Source: Anaerococcus sp. Marseille-P3625
GTDB taxonomy: Bacteria > Bacillota > Clostridia > Tissierellales > Peptoniphilaceae
NCBI RefSeq assembly: GCF_900232825.1
Contig: NZ_OCTP01000011.1
Coordinates: forward strand, 1,017,262 to 1,081,261
DNA length: 64,000 bases
Direction: 5' to 3'
Position numbers and translations under genes: made by a program. Below, one piece after another: positions 23,314-29,794 of the stretch (positions are counted from its first letter, which is position 1; every line of letters begins with the position of its first letter). Below the pieces are notes generated by a model that searched no databases, was not told where the DNA came from, and was given only the letters and a program-made list of their open reading frames with translations.

Positions 23314-24297
23314 ATGAAAATCAAAAACTCAAAAATTATTGTAGCAGCACTTTCATTAGGATTGATTCTTAGTGCTTGTGGTAACAACGATGCTAAAACA
23401 GAAAATAAAGAAGAAAAACCAGCAACAGAATCAACAGATACTAAAGCTGAAGATGCAAAAACAGAAGATACAAAAACAGAAGATGCAAAAACAGAAGATA
23501 CAGCTAACGCAGAAGATTATGATTTTGCAGTAGTATCAAGAGAAGAAGGCTCAGGAACAAGAGGAGCTTTCATCGAATTAGTTGGTCTTGAAGAAAAGAA
23601 AGATGATGGAAGCAAAGAAGATCATACAACAGTTGATGCTATAGTACAAAATTCAACAAATGGTGTTATGACAGCAGTAGCTCAAGACCCAAAAGCAATA
23701 GGTTATATTTCTTTAGGTTCACTAAATGATACAATTAAAGCTGTTAAAGTTGAAGGCGTTGAAGCAACAGAAGAAAACATTGTAAAAGGTGATTACAAAA
23801 TTTCTAGACCATTTAACCTTGCTTACAAAGAAGATAAGATTGATGATTTGGCAAAAGATTTCTTAGCATATTGCATGTCTACTGAAGCTCAAAAAATCGT
23901 AACAGATGAAGGATATATAGCAATTAAGGATGCTAAAGAATATAGCAAAACTGAAGGACTAAAAGGAACACTAACAGTAGCTGGTTCTACATCAGTAACT
24001 CCTTTAATGGAAAAATTCAAAGAAGCTTATGAAGCACTAAATCCAGATGTAACAATAGAAATTCAATCTAACGGTTCTTCTGCAGGTATTGAAGCTTGTA
24101 TAGATGATGTAGCTCAAATTGCTATGGCAAGTAGAGAATTAAAAGATGAAGAAAAAGAACAACTTAAAGCAGAAGTAATTGCTACAGATGGTATAGCAGT
24201 TGTTGTTAACAAAGAAAGCAAAGTCGAGGATCTAACAATGGATCAATTAAAACAAATCTTTGCTGGAGAAATTAAAAATACTGGAGAATTAAAATAA
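23314..24297 (+). CDS. pstS: Phosphate ABC transporter substrate-binding lipoprotein PstS, circularly permuted
   Basis: 327 residues. The lipobox (ILSAC, Cys 22) is followed by an acidic Thr/Glu/Lys-rich linker with repeated TEDAK/TEDTK units (to about residue 70). Residues 73-217 match what is normally the second half of PstS (VVSREEGSGTRGAF, AIGYISLGS, ISRPFNLAYK, FLAYCMSTEAQKIV). Residues 218-327 match the normal first half (GTLTVAGSTSVTPLMEKF, QSNGSSAGIEACIDD, IAMASRELKDEE, TDGIAVVVN, LTMDQLKQIFAGEIKN). So the order of halves is swapped with the new ends in the hinge. Phosphate-contacting residues of both halves are retained, so a working lipoprotein is likely. pstC starts 3 bases later. 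Confidence 0.93.
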   Translation: MKIKNSKIIVAALSLGLILSACGNNDAKTENKEEKPATESTDTKAEDAKTEDTKTEDAKTEDTANAEDYDFAVVSREEGSGTRGAFIELVGLEEKKDDGSKEDHTTVDAIVQNSTNGVMTAVAQDPKAIGYISLGSLNDTIKAVKVEGVEATEENIVKGDYKISRPFNLAYKEDKIDDLAKDFLAYCMSTEAQKIVTDEGYIAIKDAKEYSKTEGLKGTLTVAGSTSVTPLMEKFKEAYEALNPDVTIEIQSNGSSAGIEACIDDVAQIAMASRELKDEEKEQLKAEVIATDGIAVVVNKESKVEDLTMDQLKQIFAGEIKNTGELK

Positions 24298-24300
24298 AAA

Positions 24301-25164
24301 ATGAAAAGTTTTAAGGAAAGATTTGGAGAAATCTTATTCCTTATATCAGCAGCAATGTCCGTAGTACTTATTGCCTTGATCATATTCTTCATCTTTAGAG
24401 CAGGATTTGGTTTTATAAGTAAATACGGACTTGTTCCGTTTATAACAGGAGATAAATGGGCTCCTATAGCAAAGCCTGCAAGTTTTGGAATTTTGCCAAT
24501 GATTGTAGGATCAATTATTGTAACAGTAGTATCAACCATCATAGCATTGCCTTTTGGCTTGGCTGTTTCAATATTTATGGCTTATTATGCTGATAAAAGT
24601 TATAAGTTTCTCAAAGCATTAGTAAATTTATTAGCGGCAATACCATCAGTAGTTTATGGATTTTTTGCTATGGTAGTATTAGCACCAATCGTTAGTAATG
24701 GTTTGCATATTAAAGATCAATACAATATGTTTACAGCTTCATTATTACTTAGCATAATGATCTTACCTACTATGGTAAATATATCAGAAAACTCTCTTCG
24801 TCAAGTACCAAAATCTTTTTATCATGGATCATTGGCCTTGGGAGCAACAAAAGAAGAAACCATCCATCACGTTATGGTACCTTATGCAAAAAGTGGAATT
24901 TTCTCATCAATAATTCTTGCCATAGGACGAGCTATAGGTGAAACAATGGCAGTATATTTAGTAGTTGGTAACCAACCAAGAATGCCTCTTTCAATCTTTC
25001 AAGGAGCTAGAACACTTACAACAAATATAGTCCTTGAAATGGGCTACGCATCAGGAATGCACAGACAATCCCTAATAGCAACTGGTATGGTTCTATTCTT
25101 CTTTATATTATTGATTAATATTATCTTTAATATCATAAGAGATAGAAGCAATAAAAAATTATAA
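24301..25164 (+). CDS. pstC: Phosphate ABC transporter permease PstC
   Basis: 287-residue inner-membrane permease with six hydrophobic segments. AIPSVVYGFFAMVVLAP is the PstC signature, followed by the coupling region [23 protein letters not shown] and AIGRAIGETMAVYLVVGN. It forms the phosphate channel with PstA. The start ATG is 3 bases after pstS; no strong binding site, so translation is probably coupled. Confidence 0.95.
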   Translation: MKSFKERFGEILFLISAAMSVVLIALIIFFIFRAGFGFISKYGLVPFITGDKWAPIAKPASFGILPMIVGSIIVTVVSTIIALPFGLAVSIFMAYYADKSYKFLKALVNLLAAIPSVVYGFFAMVVLAPIVSNGLHIKDQYNMFTASLLLSIMILPTMVNISENSLRQVPKSFYHGSLALGATKEETIHHVMVPYAKSGIFSSIILAIGRAIGETMAVYLVVGNQPRMPLSIFQGARTLTTNIVLEMGYASGMHRQSLIATGMVLFFFILLINIIFNIIRDRSNKKL

Positions 25165-25181: not shown

Positions 25182-25982
25182 ATGACAAAAGCTTATAAAT
25201 TTTTTGTGTGGATTTTCACAATATTGGCATATACTTTTGCTGGGATAATTATAATTTATATCTTATTTGAAGGTATACCGAATATTTCACCTTCTATTTT
25301 TGAATGGAAATATACATCTACCAATGTTTCGGTAATGCCAGCATTAATATCAACCTTGTTTACAATTATATTAACTTTGCTAATAACTTTGCCTATAGGT
25401 ATTTTTACAGCAATTTATCTATCTAACTATGCAAAAAATAAAATTTTTATAAAGGCAATTAGATTTGCAACCGAGATCTTATCTTCTATACCATCTATTG
25501 TATATGGACTATTTGGTTATTTATTCTTTGTAAAAACTCTTAGTTTAAATTATTCACTAATAGCTGGTTGTTTAACTTTGGCGATAATGATTTTGCCTAC
25601 TATTATTAGAACGACAGAAGAAGCAATATTAACAGTTAATCCTTTGCAAGCACACGCCTCCCTAGCTTTAGGAGCAACTAAGATTCAAACAATATTTAAA
25701 GTTGTAATACCAGAAGCAATGGATGGAATTTTAGGTGGTATATTTCTATCTACCGGTAGAATTGTTGGAGAATCTGCAGCCCTAATTTATACCATGGGCA
25801 GCGAACCTTCCATACCAAAGACAATAGGAAACTCTGCAAGAACACTAGCTGTACACATGTTTATGCTTTCTTCAGAAGGATTTCATGTAAATGAAGCTTA
25901 TGCTACAGCGGTATTACTATTGGTATTTGTTATTCTAATTAACTGGATATCTAGTAAAATAACCAAGTCTTTAGTAAAATAG
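25182..25982 (+). CDS. pstA: Phosphate ABC transporter permease PstA
   Basis: 266-residue permease partner of PstC. Visible are [21 protein letters not shown], the EAA-like loop [25 protein letters not shown], and [17 protein letters not shown]. The ATG follows ACTAGGAGTATTT. It lies between pstC and pstB in the standard order. Confidence 0.95.
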
Positions 25983-26002: not shown

Positions 26003-26866
26003 ATGGAAAATAAAACTTTGAATACATCGACAGCAAACGTTGTTGATCAAACAAGTGAAAACAATAAAAAATCAGTCCATACTTTAGATAGGAAAAATGA
26101 GTTTTCAGATCTTGAAACTTCAATATTAGTAAAAGATTTAGATTTATACTATGGTAATTTCCAAGCACTAAAGAAAGTAAATATGGATATAAAAAAAGGT
26201 CAAGTAACAGCCTTTATAGGACCATCAGGATGTGGTAAATCAACAACTTTAAAATGTTTTAATAGGATGAATGATCTTGTTGATGATTGCAAAATTGAAG
26301 GTCTTATAGAAATTAACGGCAATGATATATACAAAAAAGATGTCAATGTAGTTAAACTTCGTAGAAATGTGGGAATGGTTTTTCAATCTCCAAACCCTTT
26401 TTCAAAATCAGTCTATGATAACTTAACTTATGGACCAAAGCTTGATGGGATAAAGGATAAAGATACTTTAGATGAAATTGTTGAAACTTCCCTAAAGCAA
26501 GCATCTATTTGGGATGAAGTAAAAGATAAGTTAGATCAAAATGCCCTATCTTTTTCAGGTGGTCAACAACAAAGAATTTGCATAGCAAGAACTCTTTCTG
26601 TAAAACCACAAATCATACTAATGGATGAGCCAACTTCCGCCCTAGATCCTATATCTACAGCTGCAATTGAAGATTTGATGGATAGTCTAAAAAGCAATTA
26701 TACCATAGTTATAGTAACCCATAATATGCAACAAGCAGCTCGTATTTCTGATCAAACTGCATTTTTCTTAACTGGAGAAGTTATTGAAATGGATGCAACA
26801 AAAAAGATTTTTGAAGATCCAAGAGATAAAAGAACTGAAGATTACATTACAGGAAGGTTTGGTTGA
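26003..26866 (+). CDS. pstB: Phosphate ABC transporter ATP-binding protein PstB
   Basis: 287-residue ATPase. Walker [10 protein letters not shown], the PstB-specific [15 protein letters not shown] and FQSPNPF segments, signature [15 protein letters not shown], Walker [13 protein letters not shown] and VTHNMQQA. The first 44 residues (Asn/Ser/Thr/Lys-rich) are an extension beyond the usual start; AGGAGATAAA directly before ATG 26003 supports it being translated. It drives phosphate import. Confidence 0.95.
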
Positions 26867-26870
26867 TACT

Positions 26871-27488
26871 ATGAGAAATAGATATAATAACGATTTAAAT
26901 TCATTAAAAGATATGGATAAGGAGCTAATGGAGCTAATTATCCTATGCTATGACAAAATTGATCTATATTTGGAAAATAATAATAATAGAAATCTTAAAG
27001 AAGTTGTCGATCTGGATAATGATATAACCATGAATGCTTCCGAAATAGAAAGATTTTGCTTTGAATTACTAGCCTTACAACAACCAGTTGCAAGTGATTT
27101 AAGATTTTTACAAATGAGTATAAAACTTGCCAGCACCTACAAGAGAATGGCAAGTCACCTTTCCCAAGCTTCCAATATTATGTTAGAATATAAACTTGAT
27201 GACAAAGAAGAAGATTTTATTAAAAGATTCTTAGCCAATCAAAAGAAAATGGCAAAAGATTCAATAACAAGTTTTGTTACTATAGACAATGATTTGGCCT
27301 TAAAATCCATGGAAGATGATGAAATTAACAATCATTTGTTTGTAGAAGCTATAAATTATATAGCACAATTAAATAAGCAAAACTCAATTGATGCGATTGA
27401 ATTATCTGAGAAAGTCTTATTGTATAAATATTTTGAAAGACTAGGAGATCGCTTGGCAAGAGTTGGAGATTTGGCAACGAGGTTATAA
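26871..27488 (+). CDS. phoU: Phosphate uptake regulator PhoU
   Basis: 205-residue all-helical protein with two PhoU repeats (ERFCFELLALQQPVASDLRF in the first; EKVLLYKYFERLGDRLARVGD in the second with the E-R-x-x-D metal motif). It links Pst activity to PhoR signalling. The ATG at 26871 is 4 bases after the pstB stop; an in-frame upstream ATG at 26784 lies within pstB and is not used. phoP follows with no gap. Confidence 0.93.
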   Translation: MRNRYNNDLNSLKDMDKELMELIILCYDKIDLYLENNNNRNLKEVVDLDNDITMNASEIERFCFELLALQQPVASDLRFLQMSIKLASTYKRMASHLSQASNIMLEYKLDDKEEDFIKRFLANQKKMAKDSITSFVTIDNDLALKSMEDDEINNHLFVEAINYIAQLNKQNSIDAIELSEKVLLYKYFERLGDRLARVGDLATRL

Positions 27489-28148
27489 ATGATATATGTA
27501 GTAGAGGATGATAAGTCAATTAGAAATCTTATAGAATACGCATTAAGCGAAAAATCTTACCAGGTAAAAACTTTTGCTGATGGTCTAGATATAGTTGATG
27601 TTGTAAGAGAAAATGCTGGTGAGCTTATTATTCTTGATATAATGCTTCCTGGTAAAGATGGAATTGAAATTCTAAATGAAATTAGAGAATTTTCTGATAT
27701 TCCAATAATTCTATTAACTGCAAGAACCGATGAATTTGATAAGGTAATGGGCTTAGAATCTGGTGCTGATGATTATATAACCAAGCCATTTTCAATTCTT
27801 GAACTCTTATCAAGGGTAAAGGCAATTTTAAGACGTTCAAGTAAAAAAGATACTGACCATATTAGGTACAACAATATAAGTCTAAATACCAAAAAAAGAA
27901 CCGTAAAAGTTGACGGCGAATTGATAGATTTAACATACAAAGAATTTGAAATGCTCTTGTTTTTAATGAATAATATCGGTAATGTAATAACAAGAGAAGA
28001 TTTTTTATTAAAAATCTGGGGTTATGATTACGAAGGTGAGACAAGAACAGTCGATGTTCATATAGCATCTTTAAGAAGCAAATTATTAGATGCTGGAAAA
28101 TTAATCAAGACGATTAGAAATTTAGGCTACAAATTTGGAGAAATATGA
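27489..28148 (+). CDS. phoP: Response regulator of the phosphate regulon (OmpR family)
   Basis: 219 residues. Receiver domain with phospho-acceptor Asp 50 (LIILDIMLPGKDG), conserved Thr (LLTART) and Lys (ITKPFS), then a winged-helix DNA-binding domain (LTYKEFEMLLFLM, GETRTVDVHIASLRSKL). The gene directly abuts phoU and overlaps phoR by 4 bases. With Pho-box repeats before pstS, positive autoregulation of the operon is likely. The name phoB would serve equally. Confidence 0.92.
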   Translation: MIYVVEDDKSIRNLIEYALSEKSYQVKTFADGLDIVDVVRENAGELIILDIMLPGKDGIEILNEIREFSDIPIILLTARTDEFDKVMGLESGADDYITKPFSILELLSRVKAILRRSSKKDTDHIRYNNISLNTKKRTVKVDGELIDLTYKEFEMLLFLMNNIGNVITREDFLLKIWGYDYEGETRTVDVHIASLRSKLLDAGKLIKTIRNLGYKFGEI

Positions 28149-29794
28149 AAAATCTAGCAAGTAAAAAAATGAAAACTCTTTTGATAGTAACACTCTTGTT
28201 TTCATTTTTAATTAGCAGTTTTTTTCAAGTAAAAAATAAAAAAGATGCTCAAAGTAATTTTTGTGAAAATACTTTGAGTTTTCTTTTACCTAGAGAAACT
28301 AGTGCTGATTTTATATCAACTTTAGAACAATTTAATAATACGTCAAAGATCTATAAATTAGTTTATGTAAACGAAAACAAAGATATTTACTATAATCCTG
28401 AGAAATTAAATATGGGGAGGATTGTAAATAATTTTGAGGCAAAAAAAGAAGAATCTCCATACCAAAAACTAAAAACAAATCAAGGTTTTTTGACATATAG
28501 GCTTACTTATACAGGTAAAAACGAGGGCATATTAGCAATTACAAGAGTTTATAATTTAAGCTTTTATTTTTCTTTACCAATATTTTTATGTTTTCTATTC
28601 CTTGGATTTGTAATGTTTATTTATATCGACGATACGATTGATAGCGATATAGATAATTATTTTGATGGTCTTAAAATCTATAATATTAGGGAAAATATTG
28701 ATGATAAAAAATATATGGATCTTGTAGATATATTTAACCCTTACATTCAAAGAATTGATGATTTGAAAGAAGAAAAATCAAGTCTTTACGAAAGACTAAC
28801 TGGTTTTATAAGTATCACTAGCAATATGAAAGAGGGTTTTATTCTTTTTGATGATTTGGGGAATATTGAACTAATAAATGATTCTGCAAAAAAATATTTG
28901 TCTGTTGATAAAAATGTAAAACTTTATGATCTTATAGATGATAGAGAATATGTCTTAGCCTTAAAAGAGTCACTAATACTAAAAAGAAGTAAATATCTTG
29001 ATATAAAAATAAATGGATATTATTTGCGTATTTATATAGATCCATTAATAAGTGCTAGAAAAAAATCTATATCTATGATAATTGTTGACAATAGCAAGGA
29101 TAAGATAGCAGAACAAATGCGTAGAGAATTTTCGGCAAATGTTAGTCATGAGCTAAAAAGTCCTTTAACATCTATAAATGGTTATGCAGAGCTTATAGGA
29201 AATGGCTTGGCAAAAGATGAAGATATAAGTAAATTTGCCAATATCATTTATGATGAGGGGAACAGGCTTTTACAAATAATAGATGATATATTAAAAATTT
29301 CAAAGCTTGATGAAGAAGATTTTGATAAAGATTATAAAGAAGTTGATATTTCAAAAGTTGTAACAGCAACAATAGAAAAATTTAAGAGCATAAGCAACAA
29401 AAAAAATATAGAAATAACAAATAATATAGATTCTTTTAGAATATTAACCTCAAAATATTTATTTTATGACCTAGTTTCAAATATTTATGAAAATGCCATA
29501 AAATATAACAAATTTGCAGGAAAAATAATAGTCGATTACAAACTAGAAGAAAATCACTATGATCTCATAATAGAAGATACGGGAATTGGAATTGAAGAAG
29601 CAGATACAGAAAGGATTTTTGAAAGATTCTTTGTCGTGGATAAATCCAGAAAAAGAAATCAAAAATCAACTGGTCTTGGCCTATCTATTGTAAAGCATAT
29701 TTGCTTGCATTTAGGTTACCAAATAAGAATAAAATCTCAAATAAATAAGGGAAGTAAATTTATAATAGAGATTCCACTAAAAAAAGACAAGTAA
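28145..29794 (+). CDS. phoR: Phosphate-regulon sensor histidine kinase PhoR
   Basis: 549 residues. Two membrane segments (about 10-27 and 139-161) enclose an extracytoplasmic loop of some 110 residues. Then a PAS-like region (SNMKEGFILFDDLGNIELIND), HisKA with His 335 (ANVSHELKSPLTS), and an ATPase domain (NIYENAIKYN, DTGIGIEEADTERIFERFF, STGLGLSIVKHI). It phosphorylates the response regulator encoded just upstream. Last gene of the phosphate operon. Confidence 0.93.
   Translation: MKNLASKKMKTLLIVTLLFSFLISSFFQVKNKKDAQSNFCENTLSFLLPRETSADFISTLEQFNNTSKIYKLVYVNENKDIYYNPEKLNMGRIVNNFEAKKEESPYQKLKTNQGFLTYRLTYTGKNEGILAITRVYNLSFYFSLPIFLCFLFLGFVMFIYIDDTIDSDIDNYFDGLKIYNIRENIDDKKYMDLVDIFNPYIQRIDDLKEEKSSLYERLTGFISITSNMKEGFILFDDLGNIELINDSAKKYLSVDKNVKLYDLIDDREYVLALKESLILKRSKYLDIKINGYYLRIYIDPLISARKKSISMIIVDNSKDKIAEQMRREFSANVSHELKSPLTSINGYAELIGNGLAKDEDISKFANIIYDEGNRLLQIIDDILKISKLDEEDFDKDYKEVDISKVVTATIEKFKSISNKKNIEITNNIDSFRILTSKYLFYDLVSNIYENAIKYNKFAGKIIVDYKLEENHYDLIIEDTGIGIEEADTERIFERFFVVDKSRKRNQKSTGLGLSIVKHICLHLGYQIRIKSQINKGSKFIIEIPLKKDK

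Follow-up and report, generated by a model that had tools for sequence, protein, structure and literature searches.

A circularly permuted PstS, predicted to bind phosphate, in a pst operon of Anaerococcus sp. Marseille-P3625

The pst operon and the order of the PstS halves

The window, meaning the whole stretch of 64,000 nucleotides analysed from Anaerococcus sp. Marseille-P3625, carries a pst operon on the forward strand. Its first gene, pstS (23314..24297), has an ATG start codon and a single uninterrupted frame of 327 amino acids. Profile, PDB and model matches predict that it encodes a circularly permuted phosphate-binding lipoprotein. The permease gene pstC (24301..25164; TIGR02138, 281.9 bits) starts 3 bases past the pstS stop, as the initial annotation had stated. 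It is followed by a second permease gene, pstA (25182..25982; TIGR00974, 242 bits), and the ATPase gene pstB (26003..26866; TIGR00972, 407.6 bits), all three scoring above the cut-offs of their models. The next three genes, also on the forward strand, matched below cut-off. They encode a phoU-like regulator (26871..27488; TIGR02135, E 4e-26, 91.8 of 130.25; start codon chosen in this analysis), a PhoB/PnpR-like response regulator (27489..28148; TIGR02154, E 1e-64, with NF040689 slightly higher in score and also below cut-off) and a PnpS/PhoR-like histidine kinase (28145..29794; best model NF046044 PnpS, 266.7 of 400).

As in an ABC lipoprotein, a signal peptide (23314..23379) leads to a lipobox, LSAC, with predicted lipidation at Cys22. 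An acidic linker rich in T, E, D and K (residues 23-66, 23380..23511) forms the tether to the new N-terminus. One lipobox and an acidic linker had both been described before. We call the canonical first half of PstS A and the second half B, so that the window PstS reads B-A. Half B, canonically C-terminal, covers residues 67-208 (23512..23937) and contains the phosphate loop SREEGSGTR (75-83). At the junction (residues 209-216, 23938..23961) the former C- and N-termini are joined. Half A, canonically N-terminal, covers residues 217-325 (23962..24288) and contains GSTSV (224-228) and NGSSAG (253-258). These limits are approximate, B starting at residue 67 or 70, and the earlier estimates of 73-217 and 218-327 were close to them.

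The swapped order proposed in the initial annotation was confirmed by several comparisons. TIGR02136 matched the protein in two stretches of reversed order, the best of which aligned residues 208-324 with profile positions 30-153 of 295. On the genome, PF12849 placed B (C1:1040776-1041147, profile 130-267) upstream of A (C1:1041223-1041540, profile 9-122). In the PDB chains 4q8r, 4gd5 and 1twy, the piece corresponding to residues 66/67-205/209 of the window PstS sits C-terminally, and the piece corresponding to residues 218/219-323/326 N-terminally. A colinear PDB match was obtained only with 4h1x_A (residues 71-322 on 11-260, E 3e-66). Half A was 49% and half B 50% identical to the canonical relative L053, which excludes a chance resemblance.

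The TIGR02136 score of the window PstS, 192.5 bits, lies below the curated cut-off of 206.6. All four permuted PstS scanned, including this one, shared this result (186.7-198.6 bits), and the canonical relatives L053 and L056 exceeded the cut-off (226.3 and 242.2 bits). Judged from these sequences, TIGR02136 appears to under-call permuted PstS because of the permutation, which is the practical side of the finding for users of NCBIfam. The window PstS is a homologue of the TIGR02136 family in permuted form, predicted to work like the other members.

We also considered an annotation or assembly artefact, with neighbouring fragments misread as one permuted gene. No evidence for it was found. The reading frame in the window is uninterrupted, the same order recurred in 156 different proteins from many assemblies and in all 80 loci with organism titles (the best of at least 521), and it is present in the solved crystal structure 4h1x. 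An artefact is thus refuted, with a probability close to nil.

A PF12849 search of the genome (99.89% complete) for a separate, normal pstS found no second PstS and only one other matching protein. The latter reads as a tungstate-type binding protein beside permease and ATPase genes, which leaves the permuted protein as the sole PstS found in this genome. This context, with pstC, pstA and pstB following, supports the earlier view that a full pst operon works with this protein as its binding component, phosphate binding being predicted. The genome has one Na/Pi cotransporter gene and gave no Pit match. Judged by eye, the binding protein, permease and ATPase genes clustered in L001 (G000:C1:767303-770983) look like those of a tungstate-type importer. 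The protein encoded beside them, also by eye, looks molybdopterin-type and has an end that resembles a binding protein.

Predicted fold, site of the cut and phosphate pocket

The predicted structure of the window PstS was of high confidence (pLDDT 97.3, pTM 0.90). Foldseek aligned it with 4h1x over the full domain (TM 0.95/0.97 over 260 columns, 45% identity), and with six canonical chains (4gd5, 4q8r and four of 1twy; 30-41% identity) over about half of it (TM 0.40-0.47 over 134-148 columns). An order-dependent structure aligner recovers only half of the PstS family resemblance for the permuted form. Together, the sequence, the model and the relatives support the reading as a circular permutation.

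The A-B connection of canonical PstS measures 7-9 residues (median 7). In permuted PstS, the gap from the B to the A profile match spans 6-15 residues (median 7), the exceptions being L227 and L228 with inserts of 90 and 48 residues. Of 156 different permuted proteins, 137 had a chain that ended 3-4 residues beyond A. Since the canonical A-B loop is short and the permuted chain ends just past A, the cut lies in one single loop. In the canonical chain, this loop connects the '..GEI.NW.' helix to the strand that precedes SREEGSGTR.

The initial annotation had placed the new termini in the hinge region. This was not supported, as the termini sit in one loop of lobe II. We assigned loops and lobes from motif positions, from the order of the predicted strands and from domain limits published for canonical proteins. 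By eye, and going by motif, we take R76, G81 and T82 of the window PstS to form the loop that matches Arg159, Gly164 and Thr165 of X. citri PhoX. According to the excerpted text on PhoX, these three phosphate-binding residues belong to domain II (residues 101-251), the hinge strand spans residues 93-108, and phosphate-binding PhoX is assigned to the type II binding proteins (PMC5439949). In the window PstS, B starts 6-9 residues ahead of R76, so near to a domain II loop residue that the cut should lie inside domain II, ~40 residues past the hinge strand. In the model, a 14-residue predicted strand at residues 285-298 is likely the hinge strand.

The canonical chain runs through A, comprising lobe I, a hinge strand and the start of lobe II, and then through B, with the rest of lobe II, the second hinge strand and the end of lobe I. 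In the window PstS, a short linker connects the old C- and N-termini, and the chain is opened between the '..GEI.NW.' helix and the SREEGSGTR strand. With the opening inside lobe II, lobe I would be continuous and lobe II split, and the lipid anchor would have moved from lobe I to lobe II, going by canonical domain limits and the strand order of the model. Canonical PstS (4q8r of Clostridium perfringens, 4gd5, L053 and L056) shares both halves, the pocket and the operon, but has the order AB and presumably the anchor on lobe I. Sequence and model show that the fold and the phosphate pocket were kept in the permuted protein. Phosphate would be bound in the cleft and passed to PstC-PstA in the ordinary way.

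The phosphate-contact positions of the window PstS were mapped from the numbering of E. coli PstS, presumed to apply here. Contact residues were also taken from the excerpted text of the PhoX paper and mapped by motif (PMC5439949). By this mapping, phosphate loops are present in both lobes of the window PstS. The residues R76, S80, G81, T82, S225, S227 and S255 were 100% conserved in permuted rows (n = 130-131) and 90-100% conserved in 42 canonical rows.

The position equivalent to residue 254, beside the pocket Ser255, was Asp in 69% of permuted rows, and Gly in all 42 canonical rows, in the window PstS and in the pneumococcal protein. An Asp at this position might influence protonation or the affinity for phosphate.

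Some PstS-like proteins bind other oxyanions, and the window protein might be such a paralogue, holding the operon slot. The frequent Asp at position 254 would fit this idea, although the window protein itself has Gly. We consider a ligand other than phosphate highly improbable, because permuted PstS retain the phosphate-loop residues, the window pstS adjoins pstC-pstA-pstB and a phoU-like gene and is the sole pstS found in the genome, and pneumococcal Pst2 transports Pi (excerpted text of PMC4913102). The preferred reading, i.e. that the window encodes a permuted, working PstS with predicted phosphate binding, was given a probability of about 0.93.

Phylogeny and route to the permuted order

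Half-specific profiles, applied to the open reading frames of 226 loci and the window stretch, gave 177 BA, 52 AB and 6 ABAB proteins; as many loci overlap, these correspond to 156, 42 and 2 different proteins. Neither other half orders nor separate half genes were found in this set. Removal of near-copies reduced 202 rows to 176, with ABAB repeats counted singly, and 4h1x was added as row 177. In FastTree analyses of these rows, the 131 BA rows were separated from all other rows, whether the tree was built on A+B (support 1.0), on A only (0.80) or on B only (0.31, weak). A more careful tree was calculated from 88 rows (42 BA, 42 AB and 4 ABAB repeats), with canonical rows picked by similarity to the window PstS and canonical diversity therefore undersampled. 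A single branch separated all BA rows from the others (100/99, recovered in 100% of 200 bootstrap trees), and L053 and L056 were the nearest canonical rows. The permuted clade of this tree included 4h1x and five rows of the window's genus in place of the window row; the latter fell inside the permuted clade in the quick PstS tree.

Trees of PstC, of PstA and of the two jointly, built from 123 operons (92 BA, 29 AB and 2 ABAB), were split by PstS topology without exception, with supports of 0.87, 0.94 and 0.98. Operons are inherited as blocks, so this split shows that parts were not exchanged, and not that PstS and its permease pair require each other.

The permuted PstS of Streptococcus hillyeri (L142) grouped with Anaerostipes and Parvibacter in the 88-row tree, and not with rows of its own order. 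Horizontal transfer is suggested by this grouping. Canonical PstS pieces occur in this genome as well.

Tandem proteins bear on the route. In two genomes of one genus (G412 and G432), the open frames of L051 and L052, 544 and 531 residues long, each encode a single A-B-A-B chain. Here the profile match of the first B runs directly into that of the second A, and the repeats share 73-74% identity. pstC-pstA follow the tandem pstS, and pnpR-pnpS-like genes lie ahead of it. These chains thus have the same B-A succession mid-chain as the window PstS, but hold two complete PstS each. In the 88-row tree, the first copies paired together (100/41), as did the second copies (100/98), and all four repeats fell among canonical PstS and were not sister to the permuted clade. 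The ABAB proteins are therefore an independent duplication, an analogue of the intermediate and not the ancestor. They prove that the supposed type of intermediate exists in nature. Each of their half pairs was seen to carry the pocket motifs.

Side-by-side pstS genes exist as well. In the window's genus, 8 of 31 genomes had two neighbouring permuted pstS copies, one second copy containing a stop, and the fetched loci showed adjacent permuted pairs ahead of pstC. Such pairs were seen in L024, L025, L029, L230 and others of this genus and in L106; the second copy in the genus was 46-49% identical to the window PstS.

The initial annotation had suggested tandem duplication followed by loss of the outer halves. 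The ABAB proteins and the neighbouring genes make the first part plausible, and duplication, fusion and trimming are the best-supported route, with the trimming step deduced. We regard the duplication route as the probable origin of the permuted order. Fission and re-fusion of half genes, or another rearrangement, would give an identical product. They are unlikely, because both side-by-side pstS genes and tandem ABAB proteins were observed, whereas architectures were restricted to AB, BA and ABAB, with no separate half genes seen. The two halves found in G639, a genome of the Streptococcus hillyeri order, were divided between two contigs, with one half at the start of its contig, and were left unclassified.

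The permutation quite probably arose once. A reason to consider several origins is genome G055 of the window's family. It has a full pst-phoU-regulator operon with a very divergent permuted PstS (L229) and divergent PstC-PstA (L229/L240). In the free quick PstS tree, L229 grouped with the canonical L053 and L234. The PstC-PstA of G055 fell into a 100*-supported set of 36 rows that are otherwise canonical or tandem. The separate origin of the ABAB proteins also shows that the first step recurs. However, L229 and L240 form very long branches (2.3 and 4.5), and holding the permuted rows together raised the log-likelihood by 11.5 (PstS) and 12.5 (PstC-PstA), with AU p values for the constrained set of 0.777 and 0.737. 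One origin is thus not rejected, and the long G055 branch leaves some room for a second, independent one, which we hold to be rather unlikely. L229/L240 may possibly represent a second permutation or a fast-evolving early branch. No relatives of L229 were found at E <= 1e-28 in 398 genomes, a search run without positive control.

Under the single-origin reading, the simplest history would be one permutation, in which an in-frame duplication probably produced a tandem ABAB that was then cut down to BA. From then on, the trees suggest, the permuted pstS and its own pstC-pstA were passed on together.

Distribution and known systems

Each genome sample included the genome on which it was centred. 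Within the window's family, 118 of 130 genomes gave a match at E <= 1e-8. The match was full-length and colinear in 102 of the 130, and 16 had weak partial matches only; the seven of these that were read (G060, G066, G091, G099, G122, G128 and G129) were all canonical AB. A phylum sample (>= 90% complete) had matches in 249 of 398 genomes. Of these, 18 were full-length and colinear, and two were tandem ABAB proteins. The remaining 229 were partial matches that were not individually classified, so that divergent permuted forms could be missed among them. Among 198 genomes from the order of Streptococcus hillyeri, 172 matched, and 50 were permuted, 48 with a full-length colinear match and two (G733 and G678) with B, an insert and then A. 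In the phylum of Gordonibacter, 7 of 246 genomes had a full-length colinear match (E <= 1e-40).

Loci with organism titles were the best 80 of at least 521 confirmed stretches, and all 80 were B-A, two with two copies. They comprised 30 Lachnospiraceae, 10 Oscillospiraceae, three Eggerthellaceae, one Coriobacteriaceae, two Acidaminococcaceae, others, and 23 without a family name; one was titled Streptococcus and one Bacteroides (a MAG). As they were drawn with a permuted query, they show spread and not frequency. In the 14 genomes searched from these loci, permuted PstS was found in 14/14 and canonical pieces as well (E <= 1e-8) in 2/14, S. hillyeri and Thermoclostridium caenicola. The earlier impression that some clostridial PstS share the order was thus right and understated. 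The permuted form is neither rare nor structurally unseen.

The structure in question is that of PstS2 (SP_2084) of Streptococcus pneumoniae (4h1x, released 2012), which has the same B-A order as the window PstS (TM 0.95, 45% identity). Another entry, 4exl ('pstS 1'), matched the window PstS in two reversed pieces. If it is PstS1 of pneumococcus, that protein would be canonical. PstS2 is the binding protein of Pst2, a Pst transporter that has a PhoU of its own (Zheng et al. 2016, PMC4913102). According to the excerpted text of this paper, either Pst1 or Pst2 is sufficient by itself at 1 mM phosphate, a pst1 pst2 double mutant loses about half of its phosphate uptake, and Pst1 weighs more at low phosphate. 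Pst2 takes up phosphate in vivo and is reported to be expressed constitutively, with PhoU2 controlling uptake and the response regulator. Pneumococcus differs in having a second system, Pst1, whereas no canonical PstS was found in the window genome. Its two-component genes lie upstream of pst1, and those of the window operon after phoU. The permutation is unmentioned in the PDB title of 4h1x and in the excerpted text of PMC4913102.

None of the open-licence literature matches listed describes PstS as permuted; subscription papers were outside the scope. The nearest printed precedent that we found, going by excerpted text, is TpMglB-2 (Tp0684) of Treponema pallidum, another binding lipoprotein of an ABC importer that is circularly permuted in nature. 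It has relatives in Gram-positive gut bacteria, the term 'Type Ic' was coined for it, and its authors raised tethering as a possible reason for the permutation (Brautigam et al. 2016, PMC4990184). Unlike the window PstS, TpMglB-2 binds sugar, has another fold type with an added fourth hinge crossing, and its last 100 residues are 13% identical to the canonical N-terminus, compared with near 50% for the halves of the window PstS (PMC4990184). We rejected the window PstS as a TpMglB-2-like 'Type Ic' protein, which would have a permuted Type I / Cluster B sugar-binding fold. The best sequence and fold matches of the window PstS were PstS proteins, and phosphate-binding PhoX belongs to type II (PMC5439949). 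No MglB-type protein was among the Foldseek matches listed (best 50 of 1456).

This is a real and widespread permutation in a textbook binding protein, with a structure already deposited. It appears old and probably single, reaching from many Clostridia-type gut genomes to the Streptococcus order and Eggerthellaceae within one PstC-PstA lineage. Together with the tandem forms elsewhere that illustrate the route, it offers a natural system for how proteins survive the re-wiring of their chain, and a test case for whether the position of the membrane tether matters to an ABC importer. The initial annotation had suggested that permutation may affect the opening of the lobes and the docking on PstCA. 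A broader proposal is that permuted Pst is a distinct, long-lived class, derived from one permutation, anchored on lobe II and co-inherited with an unexchanged permease pair, in which the changed tether alters docking or signalling and makes Pst2-type systems functionally unlike canonical Pst. We regard this as speculative and rather doubtful. If true, Pst2-type systems would be functionally distinct, as in the constitutive expression and PhoU2 control reported for pneumococcal Pst2 (excerpted text of PMC4913102).

Some permuted PstS deviated in anchor or operon position. L227 (G733) and L228 (G678) lacked a lipobox, and their acidic, Glu/Thr/Ala-rich inserts lay exactly at the former termini. 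In the corresponding operons (L241 and L242), pstS comes after pstB and a phoU-like gene, with pnpR-pnpS-pstC-pstA-pstB ahead of it in L242. The lipobox cysteine was absent in 12 of 155 permuted PstS with a readable N-terminus (L089, L090, L118, L120, L126, L128, L132, L133, L138, L207, L215 and L224), most of which had an ordinary-looking signal peptide. These 12 proteins may be unanchored or held otherwise. L224 had, in addition, a long acidic C-terminal tail.
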